Translations under genes and position numbers: made by a program
Shown: one piece after another, positions 2,746 through 15,989 of the stretch
Layout of the letters: each line of letters opens with the position of its first letter
Numbering within the stretch: the stretch's first letter is position 1
Notes under the pieces: generated by a model
The model's input: the letters and a program-made list of their open reading frames with translations, nothing else
Databases searched by the model: none
What the model was told of the DNA's origin: nothing
Source: Streptomyces sp. Je 1-332
GTDB lineage: Bacteria; Actinomycetota; Actinomycetes; Streptomycetales; Streptomycetaceae
Length of the DNA: 64,000 nt
NCBI RefSeq assembly: GCF_040730185.1
Contig: NZ_CP160402.1
Location: forward strand, 434,001 to 498,000
Reading direction: 5' to 3'

Positions 2746-4563
2746 TCATGTCGCTGGCTCCAGTTGGGCGTCTCTTCGGACCAGGGCGGCGTAACGGTCA
2801 CCCCTTTCCAGGAGCTCCTCGTGGGTGCCGCGCTCGGCGGTCCGGCCCGCGTCCAGGACCACGATCTGGTCGGCACCGCGGACGGTGGAGAGCCGGTGGG
2901 CGATCGTGAGGGTCGTCCGGTCGGCGGACAGGGCGTCGATGGCCTCCTGCACGGCGTGCTCGGTGTGCGTGTCCAGGGCGCTGGTCGCCTCGTCCAGGAT
3001 GAGCACGGGCGGATCGCGCAGGATCGTACGGGCGATGGCGAGGCGCTGTTTCTCGCCTCCGGAGAAGCGGTGGCCGCGCTCGCCGACCACCGTGTCGTAA
3101 CCATCGGGGAGGGACGCGATGTGGTCGTGGATCTGGGCGGCGCCCGCTGCCGCGATCAGCTCGTCGTCCGTGGCGTCGGGCTTGGCGAAACGAAGGTTCT
3201 CGGCGACCGACGCGTGGAAGAGATACGTCTCCTGGGAGACGACGCCGACCGCACGGGCCAGCGTGTCGAAGTCCAGGTCGCGCACGTCCACACCGTCGAT
3301 CGTGACGCGCCCGCCCGTCACGTCGTACAGCCGCGGCACCAGATAGCTGAGGGTCGACTTTCCCGATCCGGTGGGGCCGACGACGGCCAGGCTGCCGCCG
3401 GCGGGGACGGTGATGTCGATGCCGTCGAGGATCGGGCGGCTCTGGCCGTCGTCGCCGTCGTAGCGGAACTCGACGTCTTCGAAGCGGACTTCGCCCTTGA
3501 TCTTGTCCAGGCGCACCGGGTGCTCGGGCTCGGTGATGTCGATGGGCAGGTCCAGATACTCGAAGATGCGCTGGAAGAGCGCGAGCGAGGTCTGGATCTG
3601 TACGCCGGTGGACAGCAGGCTCACGGTGGGCCGGAACAGGCCCTGCTGGAGCGAGACGAAGGCCACGAGTGTGCCGATCGAGACCGTCGGGCCGCCCGTC
3701 TGGAGTGCGAGGCCCGCGGTCCAGTAGATGACGGCAGGCATGGCGGCCATGACGATCGAGATGACGGCCATGCGCCAGCGACCCGCCATGTTCGAGCGGA
3801 CCTCGAGGTCGACGAGGCGCTCGGACTCGTCGGCGAAGGACCGGGTGAGCGAGTCGGCGCGGCCCATCGTGCGACCCAGCAGGATGCCGCTGACGGAGAG
3901 CGATTCGGTGACCGTCGCCGCCATCGCGGCCATCTGCTTCTGCCGCTGCGTGGCGATCTTCTTGCGCTCGCGGCCGACCCGGCGGCTGATCCACACGAAG
4001 ACGGGCAGCAGGAGCAGCGACACGGCCGTCAGGCGCCAGTCGAGGGCGAGCATGGCGACGATCGTGGCGATCACGCTGGTGAAGTTCGAGACCAGGGAGG
4101 TGGCGGTGGAGGTGACCGTCGCCTGCATGCCGCCGATGTCGCTGGCGATGCGGGACTGGACCTCACCGGTGCGGGTCCTGGTGAAGAAGGCGAGCGACAT
4201 GCTCTGCAGCCGGCCGTAGACAGCGGTGCGCAGATCGTGCATGACGCGCTGCCCGACCGTCGTACTGATCAGGGTCTGCAGGACGCCGAAGATGCTGGTG
4301 ACGACCGCGCTGAGGATCATCCCGAGGGCCAGCAGGCTCAGCAGGCCCGTCCGCCCCTGCGGGATGGCGGTGTCGAGGATCTCCTTCAGCAGGAAGGGGG
4401 TGGCGACCGAGACCAGGGAGGCGGCGCCGACCAGCAGGCCGACGACCGAGAGACGGGCGCGGTAAGGGCGGAAGAGGCGCAGGATGCGGCGGATCTGCCG
4501 CGGCTGTTCCTCCTGGCCGGGGACCAGGGGCTGCGGTGTCCACTTGGGTTCGTCGTGTGGCAT
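2746..4563 (-). CDS. ABC exporter, fused membrane and ATPase domains
   Basis: The 605-residue half-transporter has an N-terminal six-helix exporter domain (about 30-320) and a C-terminal ATPase domain with all motifs intact: Walker A VGPTGSGKSTL, signature FSGGEKQR, Walker B LILDEATSALD and H-loop IAHRLSTV. It should therefore work as a homodimer, unlike the pair at 12.4-16 kb. It resembles multidrug/lipid exporters (MsbA/LmrA type). The gene is divergent from a MarR regulator 116 bp away, the usual layout for a drug-inducible pump under its own MarR repressor. The start ATG has AGGAG three bases upstream. Confidence 0.93.
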   Translation of the reverse strand: MPHDEPKWTPQPLVPGQEEQPRQIRRILRLFRPYRARLSVVGLLVGAASLVSVATPFLLKEILDTAIPQGRTGLLSLLALGMILSAVVTSIFGVLQTLISTTVGQRVMHDLRTAVYGRLQSMSLAFFTRTRTGEVQSRIASDIGGMQATVTSTATSLVSNFTSVIATIVAMLALDWRLTAVSLLLLPVFVWISRRVGRERKKIATQRQKQMAAMAATVTESLSVSGILLGRTMGRADSLTRSFADESERLVDLEVRSNMAGRWRMAVISIVMAAMPAVIYWTAGLALQTGGPTVSIGTLVAFVSLQQGLFRPTVSLLSTGVQIQTSLALFQRIFEYLDLPIDITEPEHPVRLDKIKGEVRFEDVEFRYDGDDGQSRPILDGIDITVPAGGSLAVVGPTGSGKSTLSYLVPRLYDVTGGRVTIDGVDVRDLDFDTLARAVGVVSQETYLFHASVAENLRFAKPDATDDELIAAAGAAQIHDHIASLPDGYDTVVGERGHRFSGGEKQRLAIARTILRDPPVLILDEATSALDTHTEHAVQEAIDALSADRTTLTIAHRLSTVRGADQIVVLDAGRTAERGTHEELLERGDRYAALVRRDAQLEPAT

Positions 4564-4679
4564 GGGCTCCTACGGGAGGTGAGACGGCCGTCGGCAGCAA
4601 TACAGCCGACGATGACTGAGGGAGCATAGCTCACTGTTACCTATACTCACAATGCACAAGGTCCTGATAATGTTCCCGC
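4564..4679. promoter_or_regulatory. Shared promoter region of the ABC exporter and marR genes
   Basis: These 116 bp separate the two divergent starts and are AT-richer in the middle than their surroundings. TATACT at 4642-4647 is a plausible plus-strand -10, and TATGCT on the opposite strand (about 4624-4629) a minus-strand one, so the two promoters would overlap. The segment CTGTTACCTATACTCACA is the most likely place for a MarR operator, but I could not find a clean palindrome. Confidence 0.4.
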
Positions 4680-12302: not shown

Positions 12303-12338
12303 CGACACCGACACCGACACCGACCCCGACCCCGACCC
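12303..12338. repeat. Six 6-bp tandem repeats in the gap before the ABC pair
   Basis: CGACAC occurs three times, followed at once by CGACCC three times. The array ends 16 bp before the ATG at 12355 and lies in the 333-bp intergenic region 12022-12354, which otherwise shows only C-rich sequence and no gene. It may occupy the 5' leader of the exporter mRNA. Confidence 0.85.
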
Positions 12339-12354
12339 TGGGACGTCACACGTC

Positions 12355-14211
12355 ATGCAGATTCGCGATCTTCCGTTCTCCGACCCGGGCATGCCGGATG
12401 CCCGCTCGGGCCCCCACTTCCTGCGCTGGCTGGGGCGCAACCAGCTCGACGGCCAGCTGAAGTCCCTCGCCTGGGGCATCCTGCACTTCGGCTCCATCGC
12501 GGTGCTCCCCTACCTCGTCGGCCTCGCCGTGCAGGCCGCGGTCGACCGCTCCGGGGGACGGCTCGCCGTGGCTGGCGGGGTGATGGCCCTGTGCGGCATC
12601 GCCATCGCCCTGGGCGACACCATGCTGCACCGCACCGCGGTCACCAACTGGATCACCGCGGCCGCCCGCGTCCAGCAGCTGCTGGCCCGCAAGACCTCCC
12701 AGCTCGGCTCGGCGCTCACGCGGCGCGTCGCCGCCGGTGAAGTGGTGGCCGTATCCACCGGTGACGTCGAGAAGATCGGCTGGTTCGTGGAGGCGATCTC
12801 GCGGTTCACGGCGGCCGCCCTCACGGTCGTCTTCGTCTGCGTGGGCCTCGTCGTGTACCAGCCCGCACTCGGTGTGGTCGTCGCGGTGGGGGTGCCGGTG
12901 CTGGCGCTCGCCGTGCTCCCGTTGCTGCCGCGCGCCACCCGGCGGGCCGACCACCAGCGGGAGAAGGCCGGGCGAGCGACCGAGCTCGCCTCGGACACCG
13001 TGGCGGGGCTGCGGGTGCTGCGCGGCATCGGCGGCGAGGACCTCTTCCTCGACCGCTACCGCCGCGCCTCGCAGGAAGTGCGTACGGCCGCCGTGCGCAG
13101 CGCCCGGATGTGGGCGGCGATCTCGGCAGTGCAGGTGCTGCTGCCGGGGCTGCTCCTGATCGTGGTCGTCTGGCACGGCGTGCACCTGGCCCGCGAGGGC
13201 CGGATCACCATCGGCGAACTGGTCACTGTCTACAGCGCGGTGACGATGCTGACCTACCCCTTGCGGCACTTCGAGGAGATCGCGATGGCCTACAGCTTCT
13301 CGCGCCCCTCGGCCAAGCGTGCCGCGCGGGTGCTCTCGCTCCAGCGCACGACGCATGCCGATGGCGAGCGGACGACGAGCACCGAGCACGCGGAGGTCGG
13401 GCCGCACGACGACGCTCCGACGCCCACCGGTGATCTCCTGACGCCCACCGGTGATCTCTACGACCCGGCGACCGGGCTTCTCGCTCCCTCCGGCCGTCTC
13501 ACCGCCGTGGTGTGCGGCGACCCGGACGAGGCGGGGCGACTCGCCGAACGCCTCGGCGGGCACGCGGCGTTCGACGACGCTCAGGAGCTGCCGTCCGTGC
13601 TGCTCGGCGGGGTGCCGCTCGACGAGGCGGCGCTGGCCACCGCCCGCACCGCCGTCCTCGTACAGGACAAGGACCCGGTGCTGCTCTCCGGCACGCTCCG
13701 CGGACTCCTCGACGTACCGTCATCGGGAGCGGTGAGCGCCGAGGAGGCCCTGGACGCCGCGCAGTGCGCCGACGTTCTGGACGCTCTGGCGCAGGGTTCG
13801 GTGAGCGAGGACGCGCTGGACGCCCACGTCACCGAGCGCGGACGTTCCCTGTCGGGCGGGCAGCGGCAACGGCTCGCGCTGGCCCGCTCGTTGATCACCG
13901 ACCCCGAAGTCCTCGTACTCGACGAGCCGACGTCAGCCGTCGACTCGCACACCGAGGCGCGGGTCGCCGACGGCGTCAAGGGGCTGCGCAAGGGGCGTAC
14001 GACGGTGGTGCTCACCTCGTCGCCACTGCTCCTCGACCGGGCCGAGCGCGTGGTCTTCCTCCACGAGGGGGAGGTCGCGGCGGTGGGCGTGCACCGCGAT
14101 CTCGTGCACAGCGAGCCGCGCTACCGGGCGGTCGTGACGCGTGAGACGGACGAGGAACAAGCCTCCCTGAACCTGACCGACATCAAGATCGACATCGAGG
14201 AGACGGCATGA
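12355..14211 (+). CDS. ABC exporter half A, degenerate Walker A and H-loop
   Basis: This 618-residue half-transporter has a six-helix exporter domain (about 40-320) and an ATPase domain. The P-loop position reads AVVCGDPDEAGRLAERLGG (about 382-400) and lacks the GKS/T of Walker A. The H-loop histidine is replaced by Ser/Pro (VVLTSSPLLL, about 553). In contrast the signature LSGGQRQRLALA (about 499) and Walker B LVLDEPTSAVD are intact. It therefore cannot form a full ATP site alone but can supply its signature to half B. ATG at 12355 is chosen because it starts the conserved region; the frame is open far upstream, but that is non-coding. The linker before the ATPase domain contains a duplicated TPTGDL segment. 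Confidence 0.88.
   Translation: MQIRDLPFSDPGMPDARSGPHFLRWLGRNQLDGQLKSLAWGILHFGSIAVLPYLVGLAVQAAVDRSGGRLAVAGGVMALCGIAIALGDTMLHRTAVTNWITAAARVQQLLARKTSQLGSALTRRVAAGEVVAVSTGDVEKIGWFVEAISRFTAAALTVVFVCVGLVVYQPALGVVVAVGVPVLALAVLPLLPRATRRADHQREKAGRATELASDTVAGLRVLRGIGGEDLFLDRYRRASQEVRTAAVRSARMWAAISAVQVLLPGLLLIVVVWHGVHLAREGRITIGELVTVYSAVTMLTYPLRHFEEIAMAYSFSRPSAKRAARVLSLQRTTHADGERTTSTEHAEVGPHDDAPTPTGDLLTPTGDLYDPATGLLAPSGRLTAVVCGDPDEAGRLAERLGGHAAFDDAQELPSVLLGGVPLDEAALATARTAVLVQDKDPVLLSGTLRGLLDVPSSGAVSAEEALDAAQCADVLDALAQGSVSEDALDAHVTERGRSLSGGQRQRLALARSLITDPEVLVLDEPTSAVDSHTEARVADGVKGLRKGRTTVVLTSSPLLLDRAERVVFLHEGEVAAVGVHRDLVHSEPRYRAVVTRETDEEQASLNLTDIKIDIEETA
13420..13458 (+). repeat. In-frame direct duplication inside ABC half A
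   Basis: The 18-bp sequence ACGCCCACCGGTGATCTC occurs at 13420-13437 and 13441-13458, a period of 21 bp. It adds seven residues (TPTGDLL/TPTGDLY) to the loop between the membrane and ATPase domains without breaking the frame. Confidence 0.9.
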
Positions 14212-15989
14212 TCGGCCTGGCGCCACCGGAGTACGATCCGGCGGCCCCGACCACCGCGGACACCCTGCCCGTGGGCGCGCCCGCGACGGTAGGGGCCTAC
14301 GTACGCGAACTGGTCAGGCGGCACCGCCGGGCCTTCGCCCTGCTCATCACGGTCAACACCTGCGCCGTGATCGCCTCGATGGCCGGTCCCTACTTGCTGG
14401 GTGATCTGGTCGAGAACGTCGCGGACAGCGCCCGTGACCTCCATCTGGGGCGCACCATCGGCCTCTTCACCGTCGCCCTGCTCGTGCAGGCCTGCTTCGT
14501 CCAGCAGGTGCGGCTGCGCGGCGCGATGCTCGGCGAGCGGATGCTGGCCGATCTGCGCGAGGACTTCCTCGTACGGTCGGTCGGGCTGCCGCCGGGGGTG
14601 CTTGAGCGGGCGGGGACGGGGGATCTCCTTTCGCGGATCACCACGGACGTCGACCGGCTCGCGAACGCCATGCGGGAGGCCGTGCCGCAGCTCGCGATCG
14701 GGGTGGTGTGGGCCGGGCTCCTGATCGGCGGTCTCGCCGTGACCGCGCCGCCGCTCGCGCCCGCCGTGCTCGCCGCGGTGCCGCTTCTCGTCGTCGGCTG
14801 TCGCTGGTACTTCAAGCGGGCGCCCTCCGCCTACCGTTCGGAGGCAGCGGGGTACGCCGCTGTCGCCGCGGCCCTCGCCGAGACCATCGACGCTGGCCGC
14901 ACAGTGGAGGCACACCGGCTCGGAAAGCGCCGCGTGGAGCTGTCGGAGCGGCGCATCAAAGAGTGGACGGCGTGGGAACGGCACACTCTCTATCTGCGCT
15001 CCGTCCTCTTCCCGGTCATCACCTTCACCCACACCCTCGTGCTCTGCTCGGTCCTGATGATCGGCGGCGTGTTCGTCCTGCAGGGCTGGATCGGCGTCGG
15101 CCAGCTGGCCACGGGCGCACTCATCGCACAGATGCTCGTCGACCCGCTTGGCATCATCCTGCGCTGGTACGACGAACTGCAGGTCGCCCAGGTCTCACTG
15201 GCCCGCCTGGTCGGCGTACGGGACATCGAACCGGACGTGGGCGACGGCTCCGTCGCTCCTGACGGACGCGACGTGCTCGCGGATGACGTGCATTTCAGCT
15301 ACCGGCCGGGCGTGGACGTGCTGCGCGAGGTGTCCCTCGCCGTCGAGCCGGGATCACGCGTCGCCCTGGTCGGACCGTCCGGGGCGGGCAAGTCCACGCT
15401 CGGCAGGCTGCTCGCCGGGATCTACGCACCGCGCGACGGTCATGTGACGCTGGGCGGGGCGGAGCTTTCGGCCATGCCCGCGGAAGACGTCCGCTCCCAT
15501 GTCGCGCTGGTCAACCAGGAGCACCACGTCTTCGTGGGCTCCCTGCGCGACAACCTCCTGCTCGCGAGGACCGGGGCGCGGGACGCCGAACTGTGGGCGG
15601 CCCTTGGCGCGGTCGACGCGGACACCTGGGCCCGGGCCCTGAGCGAGGGTCTTGACACCGAGGTGGGCTCGGGTGGTTACGCCCTCACACCGGCACAGGC
15701 CCAGCAGATCGCCCTGGCTCGCCTGGTCCTGGCCGACCCGCACACCCTGGTCCTCGACGAGGCGACCTCGCTCCTGGACCCGCGCGCTGCACGCCACTTG
15801 GAGCGTTCCCTCGCGCGCGTCCTGGACGGCCGCACCGTCGTCGCCATCGCTCACCGCCTGCACACCGCGCACGACGCGGATGTCATCGCGGTGGTCGAGA
15901 ACGGCCGCATCAGCGAGCTGGGCAGCCATGACGAGCTGGTGGGGGCGGGCGGCGCGTACGCGGCGCTCTGGCGGTCCTGGCACGGGTAG
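14208..15989 (+). CDS. ABC exporter half B, degenerate signature motif
   Basis: The 593-residue partner starts in an ATGA overlap with half A, so the two are translationally coupled. It has a six-helix membrane domain (about 35-320) and an ATPase domain with intact Walker A VGPSGAGKSTLG (about 388), Walker B LVLDEATSLLD (about 515) and H-loop IAHRLHT (about 548). The signature reads LTPAQAQQIALA (about 492) instead of LSGGQ. In a heterodimer its Walker A pairs with half A's good signature to give one competent site; the other site is defective on both sides. The likely role is export of a small molecule, lipid or peptide; the cargo is unknown. A strong hairpin follows 6 bp after the stop. Confidence 0.9.
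   Translation: MIGLAPPEYDPAAPTTADTLPVGAPATVGAYVRELVRRHRRAFALLITVNTCAVIASMAGPYLLGDLVENVADSARDLHLGRTIGLFTVALLVQACFVQQVRLRGAMLGERMLADLREDFLVRSVGLPPGVLERAGTGDLLSRITTDVDRLANAMREAVPQLAIGVVWAGLLIGGLAVTAPPLAPAVLAAVPLLVVGCRWYFKRAPSAYRSEAAGYAAVAAALAETIDAGRTVEAHRLGKRRVELSERRIKEWTAWERHTLYLRSVLFPVITFTHTLVLCSVLMIGGVFVLQGWIGVGQLATGALIAQMLVDPLGIILRWYDELQVAQVSLARLVGVRDIEPDVGDGSVAPDGRDVLADDVHFSYRPGVDVLREVSLAVEPGSRVALVGPSGAGKSTLGRLLAGIYAPRDGHVTLGGAELSAMPAEDVRSHVALVNQEHHVFVGSLRDNLLLARTGARDAELWAALGAVDADTWARALSEGLDTEVGSGGYALTPAQAQQIALARLVLADPHTLVLDEATSLLDPRAARHLERSLARVLDGRTVVAIAHRLHTAHDADVIAVVENGRISELGSHDELVGAGGAYAALWRSWHG

Follow-up and report, generated by a model that had tools for sequence, protein, structure and literature searches.

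A Streptomyces ABC half-transporter pair with a P-loop-less half and a signature-degenerate partner: a candidate single-ATP-site transporter

How would an ATP-binding cassette (ABC) transporter work if one of its two halves had no P-loop? This question is raised by two adjacent plus-strand genes in the window analysed here, i.e., a 64,000-nucleotide stretch of Streptomyces sp. Je 1-332 (contig NZ_CP160402.1, positions 434,001 to 498,000). According to translation, Pfam and AlphaFold models, the upstream gene (12355..14211) encodes a half transporter of 618 residues, half A, with a membrane domain and a P-loop-less nucleotide-binding domain (NBD), and the downstream gene (14208..15989) encodes one of 593 residues, half B, with a membrane domain and a predicted catalytic NBD. 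We consider it probable that A and B together make a transporter driven by one composite ATP site.

Motifs in the window pair and among relatives

PF00664 and PF00005 score above cut-off in both halves, the membrane domain spanning residues 50-302 in A and 45-313 in B and the NBD lying C-terminal to it; the ABC_tran match has full model length in B and covers only the C-terminal half of the model in A (79-137 of 137). No other Pfam domain was found in either half at E 0.001, and of the NCBIfam models that matched (177 and 179), none of the 25 listed per half attained its cut-off. The two genes lie head to tail, and B's ATG overlaps A's TGA as ATGA, as an earlier note on this DNA had claimed and translation confirms; the ATGA arrangement recurs in 96/96 distinct orthologous pairs, and 67 of the 87 remaining P-loop-less pairs have A's stop in ATGA or GTGA.

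The earlier note had described half A as lacking Walker A and the H-loop His with LSGGQ kept, and half B as keeping Walker A, Walker B and the H-loop with LTPAQ in place of LSGGQ; the letters agree on every one of these. The Walker A position of A reads AVVCGDPDEAGRLAERL, which contains no GxxxxGK[S/T] and no Lys, and its H-loop position reads LTSSP, where Ser555 (14017..14019) replaces the His. The adenine-stacking A-loop of A, absent from the earlier note, is also gone. What A retains is the signature LSGGQ (residues 499-503, 13849..13863), which is expected to complete B's ATP site, the Walker B and D-loop motifs (VLVLDE and SAVD, 13909..13944) and the Q-loop Gln437 (13663..13665), a residue present in close orthologs. 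B has the A-loop Tyr365 (15300..15302), Walker A as GPSGAGKST (15372..15398), Walker B as TLVLDE (15744..15761) and the H-loop His549 (15852..15854) in AHR, and its degenerate signature LTPAQ (residues 493-497, 15684..15698) is expected opposite the dead site. The Walker B Glu is present in both halves of this pair, as had been said. In the AlphaFold2 model of A (pLDDT, the model's own confidence score, 90.4), the P-loop-equivalent segment (residues 380-400, 13492..13554) is a strand, a 2-residue turn and a helix, the turn replacing the 6-residue P-loop seen in B.

Relatives were collected and counted as follows. The first 150 loci gave 152 half-A relatives, none of which has a Walker A (0/152), and B adjoins the half-A relative in 151/152, the B of the one remaining locus having fallen outside the distance rule used for pairing. 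The full set of 248 loci gave 209 adjacent pairs, from which nine "B then A" joins across two pairs were removed to leave 200; six loci occurred twice, and the distinct pairs number 194: in 183 the upstream half has no P-loop, and in the other 11 it is intact. Clustering at 65% identity of A produced 51 clusters, 41 P-loop-less and 10 intact. Please note that Walker A status defines the 183/11 split, so that the absence of Walker A from A in the 183 pairs is true by definition.

Every one of the 183 P-loop-less pairs has SGG(Q/E) in A and Walker A in B, and none has the H-loop His in A. B lacks SGG in all 171 pairs with a readable signature (0/171), and its Walker B DE and H-loop His are each present wherever they are readable (150/150 for both). 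The 41 clusters say the same: in A the aromatic A-loop, Walker A and H-loop His are each found in 0, the SGG(Q/E) and the D-loop Asp in all 41, and the Q-loop Gln, Walker B Asp and Walker B Glu in 5, 9 and 25, respectively; in B the A-loop (aromatic or His), Walker A and the Q-loop Gln are each found in 41/41, SGG in 0/41, Walker B DE and the His in 36/36 readable clusters, and the D-loop Asp in 23/36. A sub-clade of 13 clusters has the D-loop Asp of B in 0/13, and the Walker B Asp and Glu of A in 1/13 and 2/13. Half A has thus lost the parts that hold its own nucleotide and retained those that it lends to B, and B is its mirror image. The complementary defects seen in the window, one full site and one broken on both faces, hold for all 171 P-loop-less pairs in which B's signature can be read.

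The 11 intact pairs share gene order and polarity with the P-loop-less ones, and Walker A is present in both of their halves (11/11). Their upstream half has SGGQ and, in 10/11, Asp for the Walker B Glu; their downstream half has DE and a SAGE/SAGQ-like signature, with SGG in 0/11. Three further heterodimer-like pairs in the genome of the window (L249, L251 and L253) resemble them. The family alignment that the earlier note had proposed, in which P-loop loss in A and signature loss in B were to be compared, therefore finds the two together but the signature loss not specific to the clade: since it is common to 11 ordinary heterodimers, what is special to the clade is the loss of A's P-loop, A-loop and H-loop only. 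Homologues of half A with an intact Walker A, named in the earlier note as the finding that would speak against its reading, were not found within the clade; the intact upstream halves that were read, 11 in number, belong to separate ordinary heterodimers.

Several loci deserve mention in their own right. A second P-loop-less pair, from the other sub-clade, is found in the same genome (L149, G000:C1:7157000-7167000), with HDPTT at A's Walker B, LTSAQ as B's signature and a lost D-loop in B (DEATAEAG). Tandem P-loop-less pairs (A-B-A'-B') occur in Streptomyces sp. WAC 01529 and S. atriruber (L002 and L004). A canonical heterodimeric pair lies directly 5' of the P-loop-less pair at eight loci (L130, L132, L133, L138, L140, L141, L146 and L259); loci of this type have up to four consecutive ABC half-transporter genes, and some show only the canonical downstream half, at the end of the locus.

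Descent, constraint and genomic setting

In a tree of 125 halves built with the motif columns removed, the 41 A rows form one branch and the 41 B rows a separate one, each with support of 100 in the Shimodaira-Hasegawa-like approximate likelihood ratio test (SH-aLRT). On this tree the loss of the P-loop is a single change, and two sub-clades are mirrored between A and B. Distances in A and in B are correlated over the 41 pairs (r = 0.93; the largest value of 1000 permutations was 0.19), and within the larger sub-clade of 28 pairs r is 0.85; a common history of the organisms adds to this correlation.

One scan covered 61 genomes, the window's own included, 37 of them within the genus; an ortholog is present in 35 of these 37 at 714 bits or more, and of the two genomes without one, one is 79% complete and the other is complete. 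Wider sampling used a 17-row half-A alignment as the query on a class sample of 148 genomes and a phylum sample of 100. By score (best E at most 1e-110, counted by eye, with part of these hits read in sequence), the clade occurs in 70/148 of the former and in 4 of the 91 other-class genomes of the latter, one of the four being a partial match. A scan of named genomes, in which the best 80 of 523 confirmed relatives were retained, gave almost entirely Streptomyces.

Selection was estimated as omega, the ratio of nonsynonymous to synonymous rates, from 81 orthologs over 400 random pairs (Nei-Gojobori). In A, omega is 0.173 in the membrane domain, 0.417 in the linker and 0.531 at the C-terminus; four other stretches are lower: the P-loop-equivalent segment has 0.087, the surroundings of the former H-loop 0.061, the Walker B/D-loop 0.028 and the signature (residues 494-513) 0.004. 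B has 0.178 in the membrane domain, 0.033 at Walker A and 0.076 in the LTPAQ region (residues 487-508). The low value of A's P-loop-equivalent segment means that the dead side is maintained by purifying selection and is not rotting. A pseudogene or a sequencing error was ruled out by the 183 distinct pairs that look alike, by the presence in 35/37 genus genomes and by the low omega; a wrong start or frame of A was likewise ruled out, as close orthologs share the start region and the P-loop segment is deep within the frame.

Within flanks of up to 6 kb at the 80 named loci, with names assigned by eye, a YkuD-like gene is seen at 61, a DUF457-like gene at 75, a helicase at 73, a DctA-like gene at 31, a Gfo/Idh-like gene at 9 and a FAD oxidase-like gene at 8; an alpha/beta hydrolase beside the pair was found at 0/80. 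These neighbours are a common chromosomal setting that gives no clue to the substrate. In a listing inspected by eye, the neighbours of ten relatives differ from one another.

Other observations on the window concern the gene pair and its surroundings. By eye, no clear ribosome-binding site precedes A, a simple repeat of the CCGACA/CCGACC type lies immediately 5' of its start codon (12310-12345), and an 18-base direct repeat with a period of 21 lies in its linker (13420-13458), encoding TPTGDLL / TPTGDLY. A separate ABC half transporter, an open frame of 607 residues, is located at 2746-4569 on the minus strand with intact motifs (GPTGSGKST, FSGGE, DEATS, AHR). An ABC frame on the opposite strand is also found upstream in many related loci, and it may or may not be the 2746-4569 gene.

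A single composite site and its alternatives

Judging from the motifs, A and B would associate as an obligate heterodimer, a type IV (MDR/TAP-like) ABC transporter, with hydrolysis predicted at one site. ABC dimers associate head to tail, according to section 5 of the review PMC7756269. In this geometry, B's Walker A and B and its A-, Q- and H-loops make one complete site with A's signature (LSGGQ), and A's D-loop would be part of this active site as well. The mirror site lacks the P-loop, A-loop and H-loop on A's side, where the only canonical residues are those of Walker B and the Q-loop, and lacks LSGGQ on B's side, so that no nucleotide binding is expected there. It is probably retained as a protein-only contact, in which a conserved GDPD turn of A would sit against the TPAQ loop of B. 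The NBD of A would serve as the signature donor and as a coupling platform for A's own membrane domain.

The direction of transport is most likely export. The first structural matches by E-value are heterodimeric exporters, i.e., TM287/288, TmrAB and MsRv1273c/72c; chains of IrtAB and YbtPQ are also among the matches, and the neighbours do not point to a substrate, both of which would suit a siderophore importer of the IrtAB/YbtPQ type or a lipid flippase, in which case "exporter" would be the wrong word and the one-site ATPase would still be right. We regard such an importer or flippase as unlikely in view of the order of the structural matches and of Pfam domains limited to PF00664 and PF00005.

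Could the second site still bind ATP, through a non-canonical pocket of A made of the Walker B Asp-Glu and the Q-loop Gln, to give a sandwich of two nucleotides of which one is not hydrolysed? The subfamily of the window does retain Walker B DE and the Gln in A (the Gln in 115/152 half-A relatives), and MgATP is thought to remain bound at the dead site of other degenerate exporters (PMC7756269, section 23). However, Walker A and the His of A and the SGG of B are missing from every distinct pair that could be read, the aromatic A-loop is missing from every cluster, the P-loop is reduced to a 2-residue turn in the model, and the Walker B Asp of A is found in only 9/41 clusters, all of which make a second bound ATP quite improbable. 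Least probable is that A is a decaying subunit, as its lost cis motifs might suggest, with B functional as a homodimer: such a homodimer would have no intact signature at either site, no other stretch measured is as constrained as A's signature, and B adjoins nearly all half-A relatives and co-diverges with A.

The single-site transporter has points against it as well. In the subfamily of the window, the Walker B DE and Q-loop Gln are still present in A, which is in excess of what a pure signature donor needs. The relatives were collected because they resemble A, and lack of Walker A is what defines the P-loop-less group, so that the independent evidence consists of the state of B, the other motifs of A and the tree only. 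The tree is a quick search (LG+G4) without bootstrap, in which the position of the A clade among the other halves is poorly supported (58), and the omega values were estimated by a simple pairwise procedure.

A wider proposal, to which we would give somewhat less than an even chance, is that this conserved actinobacterial clade consists of natural one-ATP transporters, in which a protein-only interface permanently replaces the second nucleotide sandwich; transport and resetting would then be powered by the binding and hydrolysis of ATP at the one remaining site. The functional advantages of a dead ATP site in ABC exporters are called unclear in the abstract of PMC7756269, and bound MgATP at the degenerate site is suggested in its section 23 to be a stationary hub; the protein-only interface would do the hub job that is attributed to MgATP in other degenerate exporters. 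A clade that dropped the nucleotide pocket at its degenerate site is a natural experiment on the role of that site: if its members transport, then the cycle can do without ATP at the degenerate site, and a protein contact can serve as the hub. The A-B pump could be a test case for the number of ATP molecules, one or two, that such machines require. Going by its motifs, half A is not expected to bind ATP, despite an "ATP-binding" annotation. In an Arthrobacter relative (L265), both halves are annotated "ABC transporter ATP-binding protein," which suggests that half A is misnamed there.

Comparison with known systems

Some systems resemble the pair in part. CydDC is likewise a heterodimer of half transporters; two pairs in the genome of the window (L252 and L254), which we take to be CydDC, differ from A-B in having Walker A in both halves. 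Against the CydDC models (TIGR02857/TIGR02868), both halves stay well short of the cut-offs (329 for CydC and 435 for CydD): A scores 108 bits with each, and B scores 230 bits with CydC and 202 with CydD. Siderophore importers of the IrtAB type carry a siderophore-interacting domain on one half, and no such domain was found in A or B by Pfam at E 0.001.

ABCG5/G8 belongs to another fold class. Like A-B, it pairs Walker A and signature changes in its degenerate site (PMC7756269, section 7), but its Walker A change is limited to Lys to Arg (section 6). Pdr5 of the fungal pleiotropic drug resistance (PDR) family, the most degenerate case in the sections of this review cited here, is closer to A-B in that every motif of its degenerate site is altered: Walker A Lys is Cys, Walker B Glu is Asn, the H-loop has Tyr, and the signature is LNVEQ (section 23). 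Pdr5 is a single chain in which the NBD precedes the transmembrane domain, an arrangement found in neither A nor B, and its Walker A is altered by substitution, whereas in A the P-loop itself appears shortened in the model. For degenerate exporters in general, the same section puts MgATP binding at the degenerate site roughly on a par with that at the other site. The earlier note had held that heterodimeric exporters usually show only a mild defect and that loss of the P-loop is extreme; the latter stands, as the loss goes beyond the Lys changes of ABCG5/G8 and Pdr5, and the former is only partly right, given that Pdr5 as described in PMC7756269 is degenerate in all four motifs.

The closest likeness is to heterodimeric exporters such as TM287/288 (Thermotoga maritima), TmrAB, BmrCD and MsRv1273c/72c, which are likewise made of two half transporters. 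By Foldseek on the models, the fold of A resembles TM287 (3qf4_A as top match, with an E-value equal to that of 9iqg_A) and that of B resembles TM288, whose chains fill the top rows. As in the heterodimeric type IV (B-subfamily) exporters, the membrane domain is followed by the NBD in both halves, one consensus site can be composed, on sequence motifs, from Walker A, Walker B and the H-loop of one half with the signature of the other, and the degenerate signature is in the half with the consensus Walker motifs (LTPAQ). In these exporters the degenerate half usually has a Walker A and is able to hold nucleotide. The degenerate half without a Walker A, seen in the window and in all 152 half-A relatives, is the point of departure and makes the A-B pair a variant, not a typical member, of these exporters. 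The 11 intact pairs, which we assign to the TM287/288 kind, are like the window pair in having SGGQ in the upstream half and a degenerate signature in the downstream half, and unlike it in having Walker A in both halves, with an upstream defect that in most cases consists of Asp replacing the Walker B Glu. On our best reading, the A-B pair looks like an offshoot of the TM287/288 kind, and an extreme one.

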